Below, piece by piece: positions 10,946 to 57,767 of a stretch of 64,000 bases of DNA. Source of the stretch: Calditerrivibrio sp. (GTDB lineage: Bacteria > Chrysiogenota > Deferribacteres > Deferribacterales > Calditerrivibrionaceae). Both the position numbers and the translations under genes were made by a program. The notes under the pieces are model-generated. The model saw nothing but the letters and a program-made list of their open reading frames with translations, did not search any database and was not told the origin of the DNA. Each line of letters begins with the position of its first letter. Position 1 is the first letter of the stretch. The stretch is from NCBI GenBank assembly GCA_026415135.1, contig JAOAHS010000032.1, positions 1 through 64,000 of the forward strand. Reading direction: 5' to 3'.

Positions 10946-12301
10946 ATGAGTTATTTTGAATTCAGTTCTACATTTGACCATAGTCTTGAAGAACTTTTTA
11001 GTTGGTATGAGAGAAAGGGGATTATTTGCCGTCTAATACCACCATGGGAGGATGTAAAGGTTATAAGAGAACCTGATAATCTTCAAGATGCAGAAGCCAC
11101 TTTTATATTAAACATTACCCCTTTCATCCGTTTTGTCTGGCATGCTAAGCATACAGATTATATAAGGTATAAGCAATTCAAAGATATTCAGTTAAAAGGA
11201 CCCTTTAGACGGTGGGAACATACACACATTTTTAATAAGTTAGATGAAAACAGCTCCCTACTAAAAGATGTTATATATTACGAGCCTATGTTTAACATGT
11301 TTTTAATACCTGAAAAGCTTGTAGCATCTAAACTCAAAAGAACATTTAGATACAGATATACCATTACAAAAAACGATCTATCTTTCATCTCAAAATATAA
11401 CAACTCTAGTCCTATGAATATAGCAATAGCAGGCTCAAATGGTACCATAGGAAGAGAACTCGTACCTATACTCAGAAGTCACGGTCATAGGGTATACAGA
11501 ATAGTTAGAACACCATCAACCGAAAAAGATACAATTCTTTTTGACATAGAAAAAGGGGTTTTAAAAGGTAATTTCGATACTATAGACACAGTCATAAATC
11601 TCGCAGGAGCACCCATAGCTGAAGGAAGATGGACTGTTGAGAAATTAAGAGATATAGAAAACAGTAGAATTTTCTTCACCAAGCAATTAATAAAAGCTCT
11701 AAGCCAAACAAACACTACCAACCTCCACTTCATAAATGCCTCTGCCATAGGTTATTACGGTGAAAACAATCATCCCCTTGACGAACAAGGTCCAAAAGGG
11801 AAAGGATACATTGCAGAACTCTGTCACCAATGGGAAGAGTCAGCTAAAAATGATCTATTTAAAACAACTATACTTAGAATAGGGGTAGTATTGACTCCCA
11901 AAGGTGGTGCCCTCAAGAAACTATTATCTCTTACAAAATATAACCTTTCGGCAGTGCTCGGCAGTGGCAACCAATTTATTAGTTGGATAAGTATAGATGA
12001 TGTCATTTACGCTATATGCCATATAATATACAATAAGCTAACTGGTGTATTCAACATTACAGCACCCAATCCAGTCACCCAAAAGGAACTAGTGGATATA
12101 CTGTCCAAAAGATTAAAAAAGGTACGTTTCCTTACACTTAATGAACATATTGTAAAAACATTATACGGTACCTTAGGGACAGAAATACTTCTATCCAGCT
12201 GTAGAGCAATCCCAGAGCACCTGACAAAAACCAGTTTTACCTTTTATTTTCCCCAACTAAACTCCACCATTGACCATCTGTTAGGAGTAGTGGATGAGTG
12301 A
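10946..12301 (+). CDS. SRPBCC domain fused to TIGR01777-family NAD(P)-dependent epimerase/reductase
   Basis: The 451-residue protein has an N-terminal SRPBCC (START-like, ligand-binding) domain (about 1-150) followed by an SDR-type Rossmann domain (about 157-451). The nucleotide-binding glycine motif GSNGTIG is at 163-169, with NLAGAPIAEGRW and ASAIGYYG motifs characteristic of TIGR01777 (YfcH/SDR39U1). The substrate is not known for this family. The SRPBCC part may present a hydrophobic ligand to the reductase. A separate SRPBCC protein is encoded at 13371-13829. It appears to be expressed from a leaderless-type promoter and overlaps the next gene by 8 bp. Confidence 0.88.
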   Translation: MSYFEFSSTFDHSLEELFSWYERKGIICRLIPPWEDVKVIREPDNLQDAEATFILNITPFIRFVWHAKHTDYIRYKQFKDIQLKGPFRRWEHTHIFNKLDENSSLLKDVIYYEPMFNMFLIPEKLVASKLKRTFRYRYTITKNDLSFISKYNNSSPMNIAIAGSNGTIGRELVPILRSHGHRVYRIVRTPSTEKDTILFDIEKGVLKGNFDTIDTVINLAGAPIAEGRWTVEKLRDIENSRIFFTKQLIKALSQTNTTNLHFINASAIGYYGENNHPLDEQGPKGKGYIAELCHQWEESAKNDLFKTTILRIGVVLTPKGGALKKLLSLTKYNLSAVLGSGNQFISWISIDDVIYAICHIIYNKLTGVFNITAPNPVTQKELVDILSKRLKKVRFLTLNEHIVKTLYGTLGTEILLSSCRAIPEHLTKTSFTFYFPQLNSTIDHLLGVVDE

Positions 12302-48829: not shown

Positions 48830-51355
48830 TCAATTTTTAGCAATAGCCTTTCTTAATGCTTCTTTAACATCCTGTAACTCGTATGGTTTTTTTAAAACAG
48901 CAGAAAAACCATAACTGTTAAAGTCCTTAAAAACATGATCTTCAGCATAACCACTTGAAACAATAGCTCTTATATTACTATCCATTTTTAAGAGCTCTTT
49001 AACTGTCTCCTGCCCACCCATACCACCAACAATTGTAATATCAAGGATAAAAACATCAATATTGATCCCCTTTGATTTCAATTCTTTATACATTTCAATG
49101 ACCTCGTTCCCATTTCTACATAGATAAACCGTATGCCCCAACGTCTCCAACAGAATCTTACAAGAATCTAGAATAAGCTCCTCATCATCCATAACTAAAA
49201 TATTTAGCTTATCATAGAACTCTATCGTTTTAGTAGCCGTATCAGTAGGTGCCCTATCTGTAGCAGGCAAATACACATCAAAAGTACTTCCAACACCAGG
49301 CGTTGATTTGATGTCAATATAACCATTATGCCTCTTAACTATATTATAACATATCGCCAAACCAAGCCCCTTCCCTTTTTTCTTCGTAGTAAAATAAGGC
49401 TCAAATATTCTCTTCAAATGTTCTTCTGGAATACCACAACCGGTATCAGTTATCGATACCTTGACATACTCACCATCTAACAGTGTAATAGCACTATCAC
49501 CATTTTTGTGTATATATTTAGAAACCTCCACAGTAATTTCACCTTTATCAGACATAGATTGTCTTGCATTAATCAAAATGTTTTCGAAAACCTGGGATAT
49601 CTGGTGTTCATCAGCCAAACAATACAAAACATCATCATTAATTGTCAGCTTATACCTTACTGCTGATCCGGACAAAACAAAAGGTACAATATCTGTAATT
49701 AACCTCTTTATATTCACCACAGTAATATTGGGTTCTCCACCTTTTGAAAAAGTTAACAATTGGTTTGTTAATGCTTTTGCTCTTTCAAAGCCATTGCGTG
49801 CTTTTTCTATTAGATCATCGATCATGTTAGGATCTTTCATCAATCTAATCATCTCAATGTAGTTCCAAATCCCAGCTAAGAGATTATTAAAATCATGGGC
49901 TATTCCACCAGCTAATATCCCAATCGACTCTAATCTCTGGGCCTGCTGAATAGCTTCCTGGTATTTTATAGTAGAAGAAATATCCTTCATTGTTCCAAAT
50001 ATGTGCAACTCACCTGCAATATCCATGTAAACACCCTGATCATGGATATAAGCATAAGAACCATCTTTTTTTCTGAGCTTATACCTGCAATCAAACTTTG
50101 TATTATTAGGCTTTGGGTTCTGAACTATCGATAAAGCTACATCCCTATCCTCAGGATGTAATAATCTAATAAAATCATTCACATGGGTTTTTTCAAATTC
50201 TAATTGTTCTATACCTAAAATATCTTTGATGGCCCCACTTCTTTTTACAATACCTGTTTTCATATTATAATCATATACAATCTGATCACTGTACTCTAAA
50301 ACAATATTGTACATGTTATTTAATTCATTCAGCTTCTCAAGATACCTGTTTTTCTCCTCCATCTCTTTTTTCAATATCTCATTCCTTTTGGAAATAACCA
50401 TTATCCCCAAAGCAAATCCTACTGTCAATATGAATATCATCACCTGTAAAGTATACTTACGCCATAAAATATTTTCATAAAAACTATCTTTTTCAATCTT
50501 TACAGTATACCCTAAAAAAACCTTATTAACATCATAAAGTGGTAAAAAGATAAGTACATTATTGTTAGAATTTAGTACATATTCTCTGGGTGGTAAGAGC
50601 TGTAAGCTCTTCGTTGTATCATTTATATAGATGTCTTTATTTAATTCTGAATACTTTTTATTGTAGTAAAACCCTTTTGCAAACGATGCCTCTTCATACA
50701 GTTTTTTAAAAACCTCCTCCTTCATGACCTTGACGGCCTCTTTATAAACCAAAAGAAAAAACCTACCGCTAAGCTCTCTGTTTATATAATTTAATATAAA
50801 ATCGGTATTTAATCCCAAGTCCACAACCCCCAAAAAAATACCTTTATAGAATATAGGATAAGCTACTCTATAAGCAATCTCATGCTTACCAGTTTCAAGA
50901 CCAGTAGTCTTAACATGATTATCTATTGCATATGACACAACAGTTCTGATGGACTTGATATCATCCCCATACACATCTGGCAAATGTAATCTTAAAAAAC
51001 TATACCCATCTTTATCTATGATATGAATCTGGGTATAACCCTTTTCATTAATTTTATTAAACACAGGTAACAGTTTATTATAGATATATTCCCTTGTATC
51101 ATCCTTACCTCTTTCCAAAATTAACGCACTGTACAGTTTTGCAAGTAACTCAGAGTCTCTTAAAATATATGAATCAAACACAATATCAGAAATGTTATAA
51201 AAATCTTTAACAATTGTATTAAATTCAAGGTAAAACTTATTAATTAGTTGTTGATTATATCTACTTAAATCGTTTTTAGTTAAAGATTCTACGATATAAC
51301 CTGTCAATATATTCGACACCAAAATAAATAATATCCAAAAAATTATCCTTTTCAT
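48830..51355 (-). CDS. Membrane hybrid histidine kinase with dCACHE-like sensor, PAS and receiver
   Basis: From the ATG at 51355 the 841 residues comprise an N-terminal helix, a periplasmic domain of about 270 residues resembling dCACHE (segments IHIIDKDGYSFLRLHLPD and GVVDLGLNTDFI), a second helix (about 305-325), PAS (about 350-465), a HisKA domain with GGIAHDFNNLLAGI (His followed by DFNN), a HATPase domain (DTGCGIPEEHL, GKGLGLAI) and a C-terminal receiver with FILDITIVGGMGG. DFNN-type kinases often autophosphorylate and pass to their own receiver. It heads the amino acid transporter operon, so it may sense the transported ligand. The ATG at 51355 is chosen for its abutting promoter; a longer in-frame start exists. 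Confidence 0.85.
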   Translation of the reverse strand: MKRIIFWILFILVSNILTGYIVESLTKNDLSRYNQQLINKFYLEFNTIVKDFYNISDIVFDSYILRDSELLAKLYSALILERGKDDTREYIYNKLLPVFNKINEKGYTQIHIIDKDGYSFLRLHLPDVYGDDIKSIRTVVSYAIDNHVKTTGLETGKHEIAYRVAYPIFYKGIFLGVVDLGLNTDFILNYINRELSGRFFLLVYKEAVKVMKEEVFKKLYEEASFAKGFYYNKKYSELNKDIYINDTTKSLQLLPPREYVLNSNNNVLIFLPLYDVNKVFLGYTVKIEKDSFYENILWRKYTLQVMIFILTVGFALGIMVISKRNEILKKEMEEKNRYLEKLNELNNMYNIVLEYSDQIVYDYNMKTGIVKRSGAIKDILGIEQLEFEKTHVNDFIRLLHPEDRDVALSIVQNPKPNNTKFDCRYKLRKKDGSYAYIHDQGVYMDIAGELHIFGTMKDISSTIKYQEAIQQAQRLESIGILAGGIAHDFNNLLAGIWNYIEMIRLMKDPNMIDDLIEKARNGFERAKALTNQLLTFSKGGEPNITVVNIKRLITDIVPFVLSGSAVRYKLTINDDVLYCLADEHQISQVFENILINARQSMSDKGEITVEVSKYIHKNGDSAITLLDGEYVKVSITDTGCGIPEEHLKRIFEPYFTTKKKGKGLGLAICYNIVKRHNGYIDIKSTPGVGSTFDVYLPATDRAPTDTATKTIEFYDKLNILVMDDEELILDSCKILLETLGHTVYLCRNGNEVIEMYKELKSKGINIDVFILDITIVGGMGGQETVKELLKMDSNIRAIVSSGYAEDHVFKDFNSYGFSAVLKKPYELQDVKEALRKAIAKN

Positions 51356-51361
51356 ATTAAA

Positions 51362-51389
51362 ATTATAAAATCTATACCACAAAAATCAA
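51362..51389 (-). promoter_or_regulatory. Sigma-70 promoter abutting a start codon (leaderless candidate)
   Basis: Minus strand: TTGATT (51384-51389), 16 bp, TATAAT (51362-51367), ending 6 bases before the ATG at 51355. No Shine-Dalgarno sequence is present. Confidence 0.6.
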
Positions 51390-52085: not shown

Positions 52086-52649
52086 ATGGTAAAAAAAGAC
52101 TTGATTGATATTTACGGGTACTTTTCCCACAATTTAAGAACCTGTACTTCGACAATTGTAGCCACTCTTGAAGCTTTGAAAACAGGTATAATTTCTATAG
52201 ATGATGAAGAGATGAATAGCGTATATGAATCAGCATACATCATCGACATACTGGATGTATCACTTAATATCTTGATAGACCACATATTACAAAAAAAGAT
52301 CTACGATTCAGAATATGAAGTAAATATAAAAACCATAGTAGAAAAATTTTTAGAAGAACAAAAAAGCTTGATCACACTTCAAGAAGTTACTGTAAATATA
52401 GAAGCCGTTGATTGTAGAATTTCGAAAAGTGGCTATATTTTAAAATATCTACTCCAACTTATTATTTTTGAAGTAATAAAGATCTCTTCCAATAACCTTG
52501 AGATAGAAATCTCACAAAAATCTCTAAACATATCCATAGAAGAAGCAAGAGATGCTTTTCCAAACATATTCAAAATAATAAAAGATATCTTTTCTAAACA
52601 TGGGATAACCTTCGAGTATACAAAAAATAATCTAATTGTGGAGTTTTAG
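52086..52649 (+). CDS. Degenerate histidine-kinase-like phosphotransferase (ChpT/Spo0B type)
   Basis: The 187-residue soluble protein has a HisKA-like helix with His15 in YFSHNLRTCTSTIVATLEAL, a second helix (about 45-70), and a C-terminal part shaped like a HATPase fold: a pseudo N box YLLQLIIFEVIKIS without the Asn, and NIFKIIKDIFSKHGITFEYT where kinases have GLGL. No DxGxG G1 box is present. Dimerisation helices plus a dead ATPase fold is the architecture of histidine phosphotransferases ChpT and Spo0B, which relay phosphate instead of making it. The next gene encodes a lone receiver that would be the natural partner. GGTGAG precedes the start. Confidence 0.72.
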   Translation: MVKKDLIDIYGYFSHNLRTCTSTIVATLEALKTGIISIDDEEMNSVYESAYIIDILDVSLNILIDHILQKKIYDSEYEVNIKTIVEKFLEEQKSLITLQEVTVNIEAVDCRISKSGYILKYLLQLIIFEVIKISSNNLEIEISQKSLNISIEEARDAFPNIFKIIKDIFSKHGITFEYTKNNLIVEF

Positions 52650-53012
52650 ATGAAAGTGCTACTTGCTGACGACGAGCTTAGACTTAGAAAAGTGGTTGTA
52701 TTACACCTTAAAAAAGCTGGGTTCGATGTAATAGAAGCCAGTAATGGGAAGCAGGCATTGGAGCTTGCCATCAAATCGAATCCTGAGATCATCGTTTTAG
52801 ACATAATGATGCCTGAGATGGATGGAATAACCACCTGTAAAGAACTAAGGAAACATGAGGAGTTTAAGTCAATACCGATCATCATGCTCACCGCAAAAGC
52901 CACAGAACAGGATATCAAAATAGGTAAAGAAGCTGGAGCAAACGAGTATCTCACAAAGCCATTTAGCCCAAAAGAGCTTGTTGACAAGATTATGGAGCTA
53001 AAAAAACAATGA
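52650..53012 (+). CDS. Single-domain response regulator (CheY-like)
   Basis: A 120-residue stand-alone receiver with the acidic pair DDE (7-9), phospho-acceptor Asp in IVLDIMMPEMDG (Asp51), the switch Thr in MLTAKA and Lys in YLTKPFSPKEL. There is no output domain, so it acts by protein-protein contact or as a phospho-relay carrier. The ATG directly follows the stop codon of the degenerate kinase gene, and its 3' end overlaps the HDOD gene by 4 bp. Confidence 0.93.
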   Translation: MKVLLADDELRLRKVVVLHLKKAGFDVIEASNGKQALELAIKSNPEIIVLDIMMPEMDGITTCKELRKHEEFKSIPIIMLTAKATEQDIKIGKEAGANEYLTKPFSPKELVDKIMELKKQ

Positions 53013-54088
53013 TCAATGTTGCTTTTTTTGGGAACCAAGAATTAAACAACAGAATAAAAGAATCCCTCAAGCAATACGTTCAGTCAGTAATCTCCACTAA
53101 AGCTGATGTTTTCCTAATATCTATAGAAACCCTCAATGATTTTAACGGTATACCAAAACAGTTTGACAAACCATCTTTACTTTATCTTAAAAGTAATGAC
53201 CAAAAAATAATAAACCTTATAAAAAACTACAGTTTTTCTGGTATCTTACCTGCATCAGCCAACAACGATGTGTTGTTGAAAAAACTGATATCCATCAAAG
53301 ACGCAGAGCTTGGCAAAACCATCAATGAAACTGAGGTTTTAAGAGCAAAAATTTTAGCAAAAGCAGAAAATATCCCCCCTTTACCCCTTGTAGCCCAAGA
53401 GCTTTTAAAACTAACCCGAAGTGATGAAACGTCCTTGAAAAAGATAATTGATAAAATCAAAACTGATCAAGGTATTTCATCAAAGGTTTTAAAGCTGATA
53501 AATTCACCCTTTTATGCTCTCAGGAAGGAGATCACAAGTATAGATCAAGCATCCATGCTTCTTGGTACGAATTCCATAAAAAACCTTATCCTTTCGGTCT
53601 CCATAGAAGATTTCTACCATAAAAATTTCTCCCTGTACGGAACAAATGGAACAAAACTTTGGGAACACGCATACAACACCGCCCTTATTACAGAATTCAT
53701 AGGGAAAAAATGTAAAATGGACACAGATGCTTGCTATTTGGCTGGGTTGATGCACGATATAGGGAAGATAGTATTAGTGGACTTTCTCTTAAAAGAGGTA
53801 CAATCATCAGAAGATGAAAAAAACCAGGTTGGTCTAACCCACGAAGAGGTTTCCGCAATTATCCTTGAAAAATGGGGATTAAGTAAAAGCATTATAAAAG
53901 CAGTCAGGGACCATCACACTAAAACAGAAGATACCTTTTCAACCATATTATACTACTCAAACCTCTTAGATAAAAACAGATATGAATCAGATAGCTTTAT
54001 AGATGAAATAAAACTTCAATTAAAAATAGATATATCAGAACTTACAAATATCCTCAAAAAGGCTGAAGATGTTGACACTGCACAATGA
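53009..54088 (+). CDS. HDOD-domain protein with pseudo-receiver N-terminus
   Basis: The 359-residue protein has an N-terminal region (about 1-105) with the length and alternating strand/helix pattern of a receiver but no acidic phosphorylation site, then an HDOD domain (about 108-320; IPPLPLVAQELLKLTRSDE, LKLINSPFYA, LMHDIGKI). HDOD proteins are signalling outputs. The HD dyad is present in MHDIGKI, so residual phosphohydrolase or ligand-binding activity is possible. Overlaps with both neighbours (4 bp and 20 bp) tie it to the signalling cassette. Confidence 0.85.
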   Translation: MINVAFFGNQELNNRIKESLKQYVQSVISTKADVFLISIETLNDFNGIPKQFDKPSLLYLKSNDQKIINLIKNYSFSGILPASANNDVLLKKLISIKDAELGKTINETEVLRAKILAKAENIPPLPLVAQELLKLTRSDETSLKKIIDKIKTDQGISSKVLKLINSPFYALRKEITSIDQASMLLGTNSIKNLILSVSIEDFYHKNFSLYGTNGTKLWEHAYNTALITEFIGKKCKMDTDACYLAGLMHDIGKIVLVDFLLKEVQSSEDEKNQVGLTHEEVSAIILEKWGLSKSIIKAVRDHHTKTEDTFSTILYYSNLLDKNRYESDSFIDEIKLQLKIDISELTNILKKAEDVDTAQ

Positions 54089-55619
54089 ATTAGCACTTGC
54101 CTTAATCTCAGAAACAAAAACAGACTTCATAAAACATTTAGAAAAATACTTAAGTGCAAACAATATAAAAAAGTATATAATTTGGGACATAACCAACAAA
54201 ATTGCTACAATAAACAGCGCAACAATAGATACAGGTGATTTAACCTTTTGTGATCTTATAGATTTAAATTACTACAATGACAACAAAACCGTATGCTTTA
54301 CCAATGGGATAGAGATATACACTACTTTTTTTTTAGAACATAAAGATAATATACTACTCGGTTTATCAATCTGTGAAGAGGTAGAACCAGATATAATAAA
54401 CCCAAATCTCATCACCATACTATCCTCAAAACTTTATGATCTTAACGCAGCAGAAGTAAGAACCAGTATTTTTATAGAGTATCAAAAGAAGATCGACTTT
54501 ATTAAGAGATCCAGCAACATATTAAAATTACTTGATTTTGAGTCTATCTACACAAAGTCCCTTAGTTTTTTTATGGATATATTTGAATCCCAAGCAGGCT
54601 TTCTCATACATCAAGGTGAATTTTATTCGATCGGTCTAACAAAGGAAAATATTAAGGACTCCATATTCATATCCGATGAACCTCTTTTGGACTATATAAA
54701 TAGAATAGAACATACAGAATTTGTGGAAAATGAGTTAACATCAGACAAATATCTTATAAATAACATGTTTTTGATATTTGAGGAAAAATTAAATCTTAAA
54801 ATTGCTTTGTTTAATATTTCAACTCACTTTTATCCAGATAAAGAGTTTTCAGAAATAGTATCCCACATCACCTCCATAGCAATAGAAAACGCCATAAACC
54901 ACCAAAGAGAACTAACACTAAAGCTAGAAGAAAACGAAATGAAAACTACCGCAGATATTCTCAATAGATTTGTAAAAAAGGAGATTGAGCATAGTTGCAA
55001 CAAATATGATATATTTGGAGTAAGTTATCCTGCAAAACAAGCTGGTGGTGATTTTTTAAGTATTGTAAATGAAGATGAGCATATCATGGTATGTCTTGCT
55101 GATGTATGTGGAAAAGGTTATTCAGCTGCCGTTATTACAGTAGCCATGTCCACAATATTTGAACTTTATACTGGTTTTAACATTAAAAGCCCCTCAAACT
55201 TTGCTCAGTACCTTTCACATTTTTTATTAAACAAAAATTTAGATGGCAGATTTGTTACACTTTTTGTTTGTTGCATTGATAAAAGCACAAATATTATGAG
55301 CTACATATCATTAGGTCATGAACCAATCTTTATCCGAAGAAATGATCAGATCCTGCAAATTCCATCAGAATATATGCCTGCAGGAATAATCATCGAAGAC
55401 TATAAGGAAAAAACATTTCCCCTTGAAACAGGAGACCATATCTTCATTTACTCAGATGGTCTTGTAGAATATACAGATTATGATGATATACAAAAGATAT
55501 TATCGAGCTCCAAAAGCTCTCCCAAAGAGTTCATTAAAAACCTTTACCACGAACTTGTAACAGACAAAGATCACCAGATGGATGATTTTACATGCATTAA
55601 AATAGTTTTAAAGGGGTAG
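54069..55619 (+). CDS. SpoIIE/RsbU-type PP2C phosphatase with GAF-like sensor
   Basis: The 516-residue protein has an N-terminal domain (about 1-140), a GAF-like domain (about 150-280), a short coiled coil and a C-terminal SpoIIE-type serine/threonine phosphatase with the metal-binding aspartates in QAGGDFLS, LADVCGKGYSA and YSDGLVEYTD. Such phosphatases usually activate an anti-anti-sigma factor. No anti-sigma or antagonist gene is adjacent. It ends the signalling block and is followed 3 bp later by ubiE. Confidence 0.87.
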   Translation: MLTLHNELALALISETKTDFIKHLEKYLSANNIKKYIIWDITNKIATINSATIDTGDLTFCDLIDLNYYNDNKTVCFTNGIEIYTTFFLEHKDNILLGLSICEEVEPDIINPNLITILSSKLYDLNAAEVRTSIFIEYQKKIDFIKRSSNILKLLDFESIYTKSLSFFMDIFESQAGFLIHQGEFYSIGLTKENIKDSIFISDEPLLDYINRIEHTEFVENELTSDKYLINNMFLIFEEKLNLKIALFNISTHFYPDKEFSEIVSHITSIAIENAINHQRELTLKLEENEMKTTADILNRFVKKEIEHSCNKYDIFGVSYPAKQAGGDFLSIVNEDEHIMVCLADVCGKGYSAAVITVAMSTIFELYTGFNIKSPSNFAQYLSHFLLNKNLDGRFVTLFVCCIDKSTNIMSYISLGHEPIFIRRNDQILQIPSEYMPAGIIIEDYKEKTFPLETGDHIFIYSDGLVEYTDYDDIQKILSSSKSSPKEFIKNLYHELVTDKDHQMDDFTCIKIVLKG

Positions 55620-55622
55620 CAC

Positions 55623-56303
55623 TTGGAAGATAAATCTAAACAGATACAAAAGATGTTTGACAATATTGCACCTAAATATGATCTATTAAATCGACTTTTA
55701 AGTTTTAGAAGAGATGTTTACTGGAGAAAAAAAGCAATCTCTTTACTGAATATTAAGGATGATATGCTCATATTGGATCTTGCCTGCGGTACAGGGGATA
55801 TGACCGTCGAACTAAAGAAAAAATATAAAAGTATTAAAGTGATAGGCACAGACTTTAGTAAGAATATGTTAGATCTTGCAAAATCAAAAGTCAATAATGC
55901 TGCATTGGTAAATGGTGATGCTCATTTTTTACCATTTAAGGATCAGACTTTTGATAGAGTTATGATAGCTTTTGGGTTTAGAAATGTTGTGAGAAAAGAC
56001 GTTGGCTTAATAGAAATCTACAGGGTATTAAAACCGGGTGGAGTACTTTGTATCTTAGAATTCTCCCAACCCGAGGGGACCCTTTTTTCCAAAATCTACA
56101 GACTATATTTTTTAAAGATACTACCTCTTATAGGCGGACTAATCTCAGGCAACAGAAGTGCCTATAGCTATCTACCAGAATCCGTATATCAGTTTCCTAA
56201 TAAAACCGATTATAAAACGATGATCACAAATGCCGGATTTAGAAGAGTAGATTTTAACTACATGACATTTGGTATATGCAATGCAGCTATATGCTATAAA
56301 TAA
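55623..56303 (+). CDS. ubiE: Demethylmenaquinone/ubiquinone methyltransferase UbiE/MenG
   Basis: SAM-dependent C-methyltransferase for the last step of menaquinone (or ubiquinone) synthesis. The 226-residue protein has MFDNIAPKYDLLNRLLS at its N-terminus, the SAM-binding LDLACGTGDMT and GNRSAYSYLPESVYQFP, which identify UbiE. The TTG start at 55623 follows AAGGGG. It lies next to ubiD, supporting a quinone biosynthesis role. Confidence 0.94.
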   Translation: MEDKSKQIQKMFDNIAPKYDLLNRLLSFRRDVYWRKKAISLLNIKDDMLILDLACGTGDMTVELKKKYKSIKVIGTDFSKNMLDLAKSKVNNAALVNGDAHFLPFKDQTFDRVMIAFGFRNVVRKDVGLIEIYRVLKPGGVLCILEFSQPEGTLFSKIYRLYFLKILPLIGGLISGNRSAYSYLPESVYQFPNKTDYKTMITNAGFRRVDFNYMTFGICNAAICYK

Positions 56304-56318: not shown

Positions 56319-57767
56319 ATGGCTTATAAAGATCTTAGAGAGTTCATAGATCTGCTGGAAAAAGAGAAAGAACTTATCAGGATAAAGCAGGAATGCGACC
56401 CTATCTTGGAGATAACAGAGATAACAGATAGAGTATCCAAAAATTATGGCCCAGCACTACTTTTTGAAAAGCCTAAAGGGTCAGAACATCCCCTCTTGAT
56501 AAATACCTTTGGATCCACCAAGCGAATGAACATGGCCTTAGAAGTAGACTCCTTGGATGAGCTTGGTGAAAGAATCATAAACCTCATTGACAGAAATGTT
56601 CCCCAAAACTTTATCGATAAGATGAAATCCCTTCCTATGCTCTTTGAATTGAATCAGATATTCCCCAAAATAGTCAAAAGCGGACCCTGCAAAGAGGTAA
56701 TTTTAAAAGATGATGAGGTAGATCTTTTTAAATTCCCTATATTACAATGCTGGCCTAAAGACGCCGGAAGATTTATCACGCTACCAAACATTTTTACAAA
56801 GGATCCTGAGACAGGCACAAGAAACTGTGGTATGTACAGGATGCAGGTATATGATAAAAAGACCACTGGTATGCACTGGCATATCCACCATCATGGAGCA
56901 GAACACTATAGAAAAGCTAAGAAGATGGGGTTAAAGAGGCTTGAGGTAGCTGTCTCTTTGGGTGCAGATCCTGCAGTCATCTATTCAGCCACAGCACCAG
57001 CACCAGATGGCATAGATGAGATGCTACTGGCTGGATTCATAAGAAAAAAACCTGTAGAACTTGTGAAATGTGAAACAGTAGACTTAGAAGTTCCTGCAAA
57101 TAGCGAAATAGTCCTCGAAGGCTACGTAAATATAGATGAATTAAGACTCGAAGGACCTTTTGGAGATCATACAGGCTATTATTCCTTAGCAGATATGTAC
57201 CCGGTTTTCCACGTCACATGCATCACCCACAGGAAAAACGCCATATACCCCACAACAATAGTGGGCAAACCACCTATGGAAGATTGTTATATGGGTGTAG
57301 CCACAGGTAGAATATTCCTACCACTGCTAAAGAAACAGGTTCCTGAGATAGTCGATATGGCTCTACCTTTAGAAGGGGTATTCCATAACATCATGTTTAT
57401 ATCCATCGATAAAAAATACCCAATGCACGCAAAGAAGATTATGAACTTTGTATGGGGTACAGGTCAGATGATGTTCACTAAGATGATCGTAGTAGTAGAT
57501 AAAGATGTGAATGTTCACAATACCTCCGAAGTCCTCTGGAGACTTGGTAACAACGTTGACTGGAAAAGGGATATCGTCATAATGGAAGGACCACTGGATG
57601 CCCTTGACCATTCATCCCCTTATGCTTTCTGGGGAGCAAAGATTGGTATAGATGCCACAAAAAAATGGTCATCAGAAGGTCATCTTAGGGAATGGCCTGA
57701 AGATATCGTCATGACAGAAGAGATAAAAAAGCTGGTAGATAGTAAGTGGAAAGATCTGGGATTATAG
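56319..57767 (+). CDS. ubiD: UbiD-family decarboxylase
   Basis: Prenylated-FMN-dependent decarboxylase of aromatic or alpha,beta-unsaturated acids. The 482-residue protein has the family's glutamate/arginine active-site segments (TRNCGMYRMQVYDKKTTGMH and LEGPFGDHTGYYS). With ubiE next to it, decarboxylation of a polyprenyl quinone precursor, for example in futalosine-route menaquinone synthesis, is the likely role. The flavin prenyltransferase UbiX is not in the window. AAAGGAG precedes the start; the stop region overlaps nth by 22 bp. Confidence 0.92.
   Translation: MAYKDLREFIDLLEKEKELIRIKQECDPILEITEITDRVSKNYGPALLFEKPKGSEHPLLINTFGSTKRMNMALEVDSLDELGERIINLIDRNVPQNFIDKMKSLPMLFELNQIFPKIVKSGPCKEVILKDDEVDLFKFPILQCWPKDAGRFITLPNIFTKDPETGTRNCGMYRMQVYDKKTTGMHWHIHHHGAEHYRKAKKMGLKRLEVAVSLGADPAVIYSATAPAPDGIDEMLLAGFIRKKPVELVKCETVDLEVPANSEIVLEGYVNIDELRLEGPFGDHTGYYSLADMYPVFHVTCITHRKNAIYPTTIVGKPPMEDCYMGVATGRIFLPLLKKQVPEIVDMALPLEGVFHNIMFISIDKKYPMHAKKIMNFVWGTGQMMFTKMIVVVDKDVNVHNTSEVLWRLGNNVDWKRDIVIMEGPLDALDHSSPYAFWGAKIGIDATKKWSSEGHLREWPEDIVMTEEIKKLVDSKWKDLGL

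Follow-up and report, generated by a model that had tools for sequence, protein, structure and literature searches.

To our knowledge, only a few kinase-derived dimeric phosphotransferases have been described, namely, Spo0B, ChpT, and PhyT. ChpT also serves the lone receiver CpdR, while HptB, the phosphotransfer component of a related Pseudomonas pathway, is an Hpt-type protein. ChpT consists of a DHp hairpin that carries the phospho-His and an ATPase-like domain that does not bind ATP, and it serves a hybrid kinase (PMC3433190). In the general stress response of Sphingomonas, the degenerate histidine kinase PhyT is a phosphotransferase that acts from the single-domain receiver SdrG to PhyR (PMC5898713). 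In the HptB-HsbR-HsbA pathway of Pseudomonas, hybrid kinases and a phosphotransfer protein feed a receiver, and this receiver controls a PP2C phosphatase (PMC6482189). Finally, receivers without the phospho-acceptor Asp that are joined to HDOD domains are known (PMC4395418).

The window, that is, the whole stretch of Calditerrivibrio DNA that we analyzed (64,000 nucleotides), contains four genes at 52086-55619. They appear to encode a phosphorelay that has not been described before, with a free receiver, an HDOD protein, and a protein phosphatase at its output end. All four open reading frames of the initial annotation are present at these coordinates and on the same (plus) strand. The first (52086..52649) encodes a 187-aa protein, here called P1, with a HisKA (DHp) part and a degenerate ATPase-like part. 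The gene for a lone receiver of 120 aa (52650..53012) follows without a gap, as had been claimed, since the two genes abut at 52649/52650. Next come the genes for the HDOD protein (53009..54088) and for a SpoIIE-type PP2C phosphatase (54069..55619). The genes had all been described as overlapping; this is true of the receiver and HDOD genes (4 bases) and of the HDOD and PP2C genes (20 bases), but the P1 and receiver genes only abut. Upstream of the cassette lies the gene for a HAD pyrimidine 5'-nucleotidase (TIGR01993; 51462..52070, plus strand). Downstream are ubiE/menG, encoding a quinone methyltransferase (55623..56303, plus strand), the gene for a UbiD-type decarboxylase (56319..57767, plus strand), and the gene for endonuclease III. 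Judging from strand and spacing, the cassette and the quinone biosynthesis genes may be co-transcribed.

P1 had been said to combine a HisKA helix bearing a His in the motif HNLRT with an ATPase-like half that lacks the N-box Asn and the G1 box, and we confirmed both features. His15 lies in the H-box YFSHNLRT, which begins at Tyr12. When hhalign was used to align P1 with seven class-I kinases encoded in the window genome (residues 13-143, E=4.5e-9), the N-box (NIVNNA-type) aligned with LIIFEV of P1, in which E129 replaces the second Asn, and the G-box region of the kinases had no counterpart. At the level of sequence, P1 shares descent with class-I HisKA kinases, and the P1 profile also matches kinases in several genomes. 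P1 is without the hallmarks of a class-I histidine kinase, which are the N-box Asn, the G boxes, and the acid after the His. We looked for an ATP-binding site in P1, and no such site was found. P1 is thus a kinase-derived protein that cannot be assumed to handle ATP by the established mechanism. The AlphaFold model of P1 (17 sequences; pLDDT 94.6, pTM 0.90) is an antiparallel hairpin of two helices (residues 2-32 and 41-67), corresponding to a DHp, followed by a reduced Bergerat-like alpha/beta domain. Among the best 50 PDB hits listed by Foldseek, the model matches the DHp-CA cores of kinases, with a TM score of 0.68-0.69 for HK853 and 0.67 for the pseudokinase DivL. No Pfam or NCBIfam model matched P1 above its cutoff, and for Pfam no match came near any cutoff. 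Weak Pfam matches to the P1 family, such as KdpD and DAAF9, were scattered and at chance level.

This anatomy bears on the earlier comparison of P1 with ChpT and Spo0B. The comparison holds in kind, in that P1 has a predicted HisKA-core fold with a reduced ATPase-like domain and a receiver as a neighbor, but P1 falls in neither Pfam family. No P1 locus was among the matches to the ChpT model PF10090 (HPTransfase) at E<=0.1, and 0/27 P1 members matched this model or the Spo0B model at E<=1. P1 resembles ChpT in having a DHp hairpin and a Bergerat-like domain from which the ATP-site motifs are absent, on the P1 side in a predicted structure. It differs from ChpT in that its gene is in an operon with those for a receiver, an HDOD protein, and a PP2C phosphatase and has no CtrA-type regulator with it. 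Like Spo0B, a kinase-derived dimeric phosphotransferase that has lost its kinase activity (PMC3433190), P1 would be a dimer; however, it has no Spo0F or Spo0A partners and no sporulation context. PhyT is a degenerate kinase that works with a single-domain receiver, and P1 adjoins one, but PhyT has the HRxxN DHp motif, as for PhyP-type proteins, whereas the H-box of P1 is like that of class-I HisKA proteins. P1 is kinase derived, phosphotransferase-like in anatomy, and outside the named families.

The putative phospho-accepting residue is well conserved in the P1 family. His15 is kept in 32/34 orthologues; the position that follows it is occupied by Asn or His in each of the 34, where kinases have Glu or Asp. 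Residues F13, R18, D54, D57, and E129 are invariant. Both exceptions at His15 come from one family (f3; L047:7394-7960 and L060:3904-4467), where the H-box reads SFHMRN or SRHMRN, so that the canonical His is replaced by Phe or Arg and a His stands one residue later. Denitrovibrio-like genomes have a His at both H-box positions (SHH). The idea that the phospho-His of f3 shifted via such a double-His ancestor was not supported: in a FastTree phylogeny built on the receiver, HDOD, and PP2C proteins, f3 groups with sequences that read SHN and falls outside the SHH clade, with a support of 0.85 at the node.

We found P1 in a single order of bacteria. A search with the P1 sequence alone recovered P1 in the window genome, and the strong matches in a further 99 genomes all came from members of the same order; a weak second match in the window genome (C8:29304) is GrpE and a chance match. 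A profile search of the phylum returned 34 strong P1 cases, with a wide gap to the next matches, which are ordinary histidine kinases. A motif-pattern scan of 84,980 species returned Deferribacterales only, comprising Calditerrivibrio, Denitrovibrio, Mucispirillum, and relatives. The receiver gene is directly 3' of P1 in 26/26 mapped loci, the HDOD and PP2C genes follow it wherever the contig continues, and ubiE is there in 24 loci reaching that point. This P1-receiver-HDOD-PP2C-UbiE order is kept across most Deferribacterales families, is the same in the named genomes, and was not found outside Deferribacterales. That orthologues in 34 genomes have the same gene order places the cassette far beyond chance. 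The link to a quinone gene noted at the outset also holds: UbiE adjoins the cassette across the order. The genes on either side of the P1-to-ubiE block differ from family to family; the HAD nucleotidase is a neighbor in some families only, and a close orthologue of UbiD follows UbiE in only part of the order. The cassette may be tied functionally to quinone or to the redox state. As a separate observation, ubiE/menG stays linked to the cassette across the order while other neighbors change. Two genomes of family f8 have an extra gene between the receiver and HDOD genes, of 119 aa in L049 and with a gap of the same size in L050. The L049 product (10980-11339) is a putative membrane or exported protein with a signal-like N terminus and a glycine-rich helix.

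The receiver (Pfam Response_reg, 3.6e-31) has the features of a single-domain response regulator, with an acid pair (D7/D8), a phospho-Asp (D51), a Thr (T81), a Lys (K103), and no output domain. Helix 1 is the usual docking face of receivers for DHp partners. In the cassette receivers this helix is nearly invariant, and its motif ADDELRLRK is the same in 24/24 aligned sequences, while P1 drifts to ~28% identity. The HDOD protein has a receiver-like N-terminal domain (approximately residues 1-112) and an HDOD domain (residues 122-304; Pfam HDOD, 5e-45); the N terminus matched the receiver weakly by hhalign (P=0.0026) and over part of the domain only. The PP2C phosphatase has a catalytic domain (residues 336-512; PF07228, 4.8e-31) in which the metal-site motifs GGDF, DVCGKG, DG, and DDFTC are intact and conserved. 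Its N-terminal half had been assigned a GAF-like domain. Pfam does not see this domain, giving no match in this half, but when residues 1-302 were modeled, with medium confidence (pLDDT 79), the predicted fold matched structures of the tandem-GAF and PAS-GAF-PHY kinds, and the half is predicted to be tandem GAF-like.

The initial annotation knew of no such arrangement. In the literature searched, which covered few subscription journals, we found no conserved operon that brings a kinase-derived phosphotransferase together with a free receiver, an HDOD protein, and GAF-PP2C. However, the HptB-HsbR-HsbA pathway (PMC6482189) and the Asp-less receiver-HDOD proteins (PMC4395418) make the arrangement less isolated than had been stated. 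In the former, the receiver is fused to the PP2C domain and a kinase domain, whereas in the cassette the receiver and PP2C are separate genes. Its STAS partner, HsbA, is known and it has no HDOD protein, whereas the cassette has one. For the latter, the passages of PMC4395418 that were consulted do not mention a phosphotransferase, a free receiver, or a phosphatase linked to these proteins.

Our preferred reading, with a probability of roughly 0.55, is that P1 is a dimeric histidine phosphotransferase, like ChpT, Spo0B, and PhyT in kind, which relays phosphate to the free receiver and that this receiver sets the activity of the HDOD protein, the PP2C phosphatase, or both. The cassette would be a vertically inherited signaling operon of the Deferribacterales. 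P1 would derive from a class-I histidine kinase, and two of its DHp hairpins would form a four-helix bundle dimer. Its His15 would take the phosphoryl group from the receiver domain of at least one hybrid kinase encoded elsewhere and pass it reversibly to Asp51 of the adjacent free receiver, and P1 might also drain phosphate. The phosphorylated receiver would bind the HDOD protein, perhaps via the Asp-less receiver-like domain, and/or the GAF-PP2C protein. This binding would change how PP2C acts on a partner that is phosphorylated on Ser/Thr and is probably a STAS protein. The genes, their order and conservation, the predicted P1 fold, the loss of ATP-site residues, and the retained His and receiver Asp are observations, whereas the P1 dimer, the phosphotransfer, its donor, the contact of the receiver with HDOD and PP2C, and the substrate are what we infer in this scheme; order-wide linkage is the basis for placing HDOD and PP2C at the end of the relay. 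In favor of the scheme are the kinase-core fold, the retained His, the joint absence of P1 and the receiver at this locus in genus g14, and the nearly invariant helix 1 of the receiver. Against it stand the replaced His in f3, the separability of the parts, the lack of matches to the ChpT and Spo0B models, and the hybrid kinases of genomes that lack P1. The cassette is real and conserved, and the relay mechanism is plausible. More tentatively, P1 may represent a further lineage of dimeric histidine phosphotransferase that arose separately, is confined to the Deferribacterales, and feeds a free receiver with HDOD and GAF-PP2C as its outputs. The phosphorelay would run from His/Asp chemistry into Ser/Thr dephosphorylation, would not end at a transcription factor, and would be tied to menaquinone (menG) expression.

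P1 could instead be a pseudo-histidine kinase, acting as a phosphatase or a noncatalytic dock for the receiver. The receiver would then be charged by other kinases or acetyl phosphate, and P1 would only discharge or sequester it. This fits the residue at position +4 from the His (T19, or Asn in f3), which is the position used by phosphatase-competent HisKA kinases. It also fits the high conservation of the receiver face and the presence of the pseudokinase DivL among the nearest folds to P1 (TM 0.67, among the best 50 PDB hits listed), as well as the fact that our co-distribution search found no donor kinase. However, a role confined to dephosphorylation or scaffolding would not require the phospho-accepting His, which is nevertheless retained in 32/34 orthologues, and ChpT, Spo0B, and PhyT relay phosphate with the same anatomy (PMC3433190, PMC5898713). 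We consider a pseudo-kinase role for P1 unlikely.

A phosphotransferase role for P1 raises the matter of its donor. The window genome (2 Mb) encodes at least seven HDFNN hybrid kinases that end in a receiver. It has six matches to Hpt, three of which lie in CheA-sized reading frames. This number of hybrids and the few Hpt matches therefore leave room for a shared external phosphotransferase. One of these hybrids, a CckA-like protein with the architecture dCache-PAS-HisKA(HDFNN)-HATPase-REC, is encoded divergently from the cassette (48830..51382, minus strand) and is a candidate donor; in the relatives examined, we did not find it at this position. Two genomes from which the whole cassette is absent (G004 and G011) still encode HDFNN hybrid kinases in large numbers and have just 1-2 matches to Hpt. 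Since genomes without P1 have as many hybrids, hybrid abundance is no evidence of pairing, and the hybrids do not require P1. Co-distribution did not single out the hybrids as donors, because they show no co-loss and G004 and G011 keep them without the cassette. The search for an orphan donor kinase thus assigned none.

The outcome was the same for an anti-sigma antagonist as the substrate of the phosphatase: none was assigned, and the co-distribution test was negative. STAS genes exist elsewhere in the genome, and the distribution of RsbW orthologues does not track the cassette. An orphan RsbV/RsbW pair (C35) was rejected as a conserved substrate, as RsbW is absent (E<=1e-6) from the cassette-bearing families f5 and f6 and is present in G004 and G011. 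At L142:11279-12056, an orphan RsbW-like kinase (150 aa) and an RsbV-like STAS protein (115 aa) are encoded, and neither a phosphatase nor a sigma factor is encoded next to them. In the f10 genomes G048 and G050, a relative of RsbW lies just beside a large PP2C protein.

The cassette is not whole in every genome. In genus g14, which belongs to the same family as the Mucispirillum genomes, the HDOD and PP2C genes are kept and P1 and the receiver are both absent at the three loci with readable context (L066, L068, and L071); UbiE was seen in one of the three. G026 has a TPR protein in place of P1 and the receiver and keeps HDOD and PP2C, while G006 has the receiver and HDOD without P1 or PP2C at the locus. 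In most cases P1 and the receiver go together, and HDOD-PP2C can occur where this pair is missing. The parts of the cassette are separable, because G006 keeps receiver and HDOD and g14 keeps HDOD and PP2C. These patterns would be expected if the operon held two separate modules, P1 and the receiver having a target of their own and HDOD and PP2C standing apart, linked by vertical descent or menG expression. UbiE, which is unrelated to signaling yet equally linked, is in keeping with this explanation. However, the genes stay adjacent at ~28-40% protein identity across families while the flanks have changed, which suggests selection on the whole block, and we regard two independent modules as improbable. 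Kinase activity of P1 through an ATP site of unusual form is hardly credible, since, although P1 descends from class-I kinases and retains the alpha/beta domain, its second N-box Asn is Glu, the G boxes are absent, no acid follows the His, and the protein totals 187 aa.

As a further kinase-derived phosphotransferase, and one without a Pfam or NCBIfam name, P1 would add a comparison for the loss of kinase ATP chemistry. The cassette has a fixed gene order across the Deferribacterales, to which the gut commensal Mucispirillum belongs. In addition, HDOD proteins, about whose role little is known, would gain a defined set of signaling partners.
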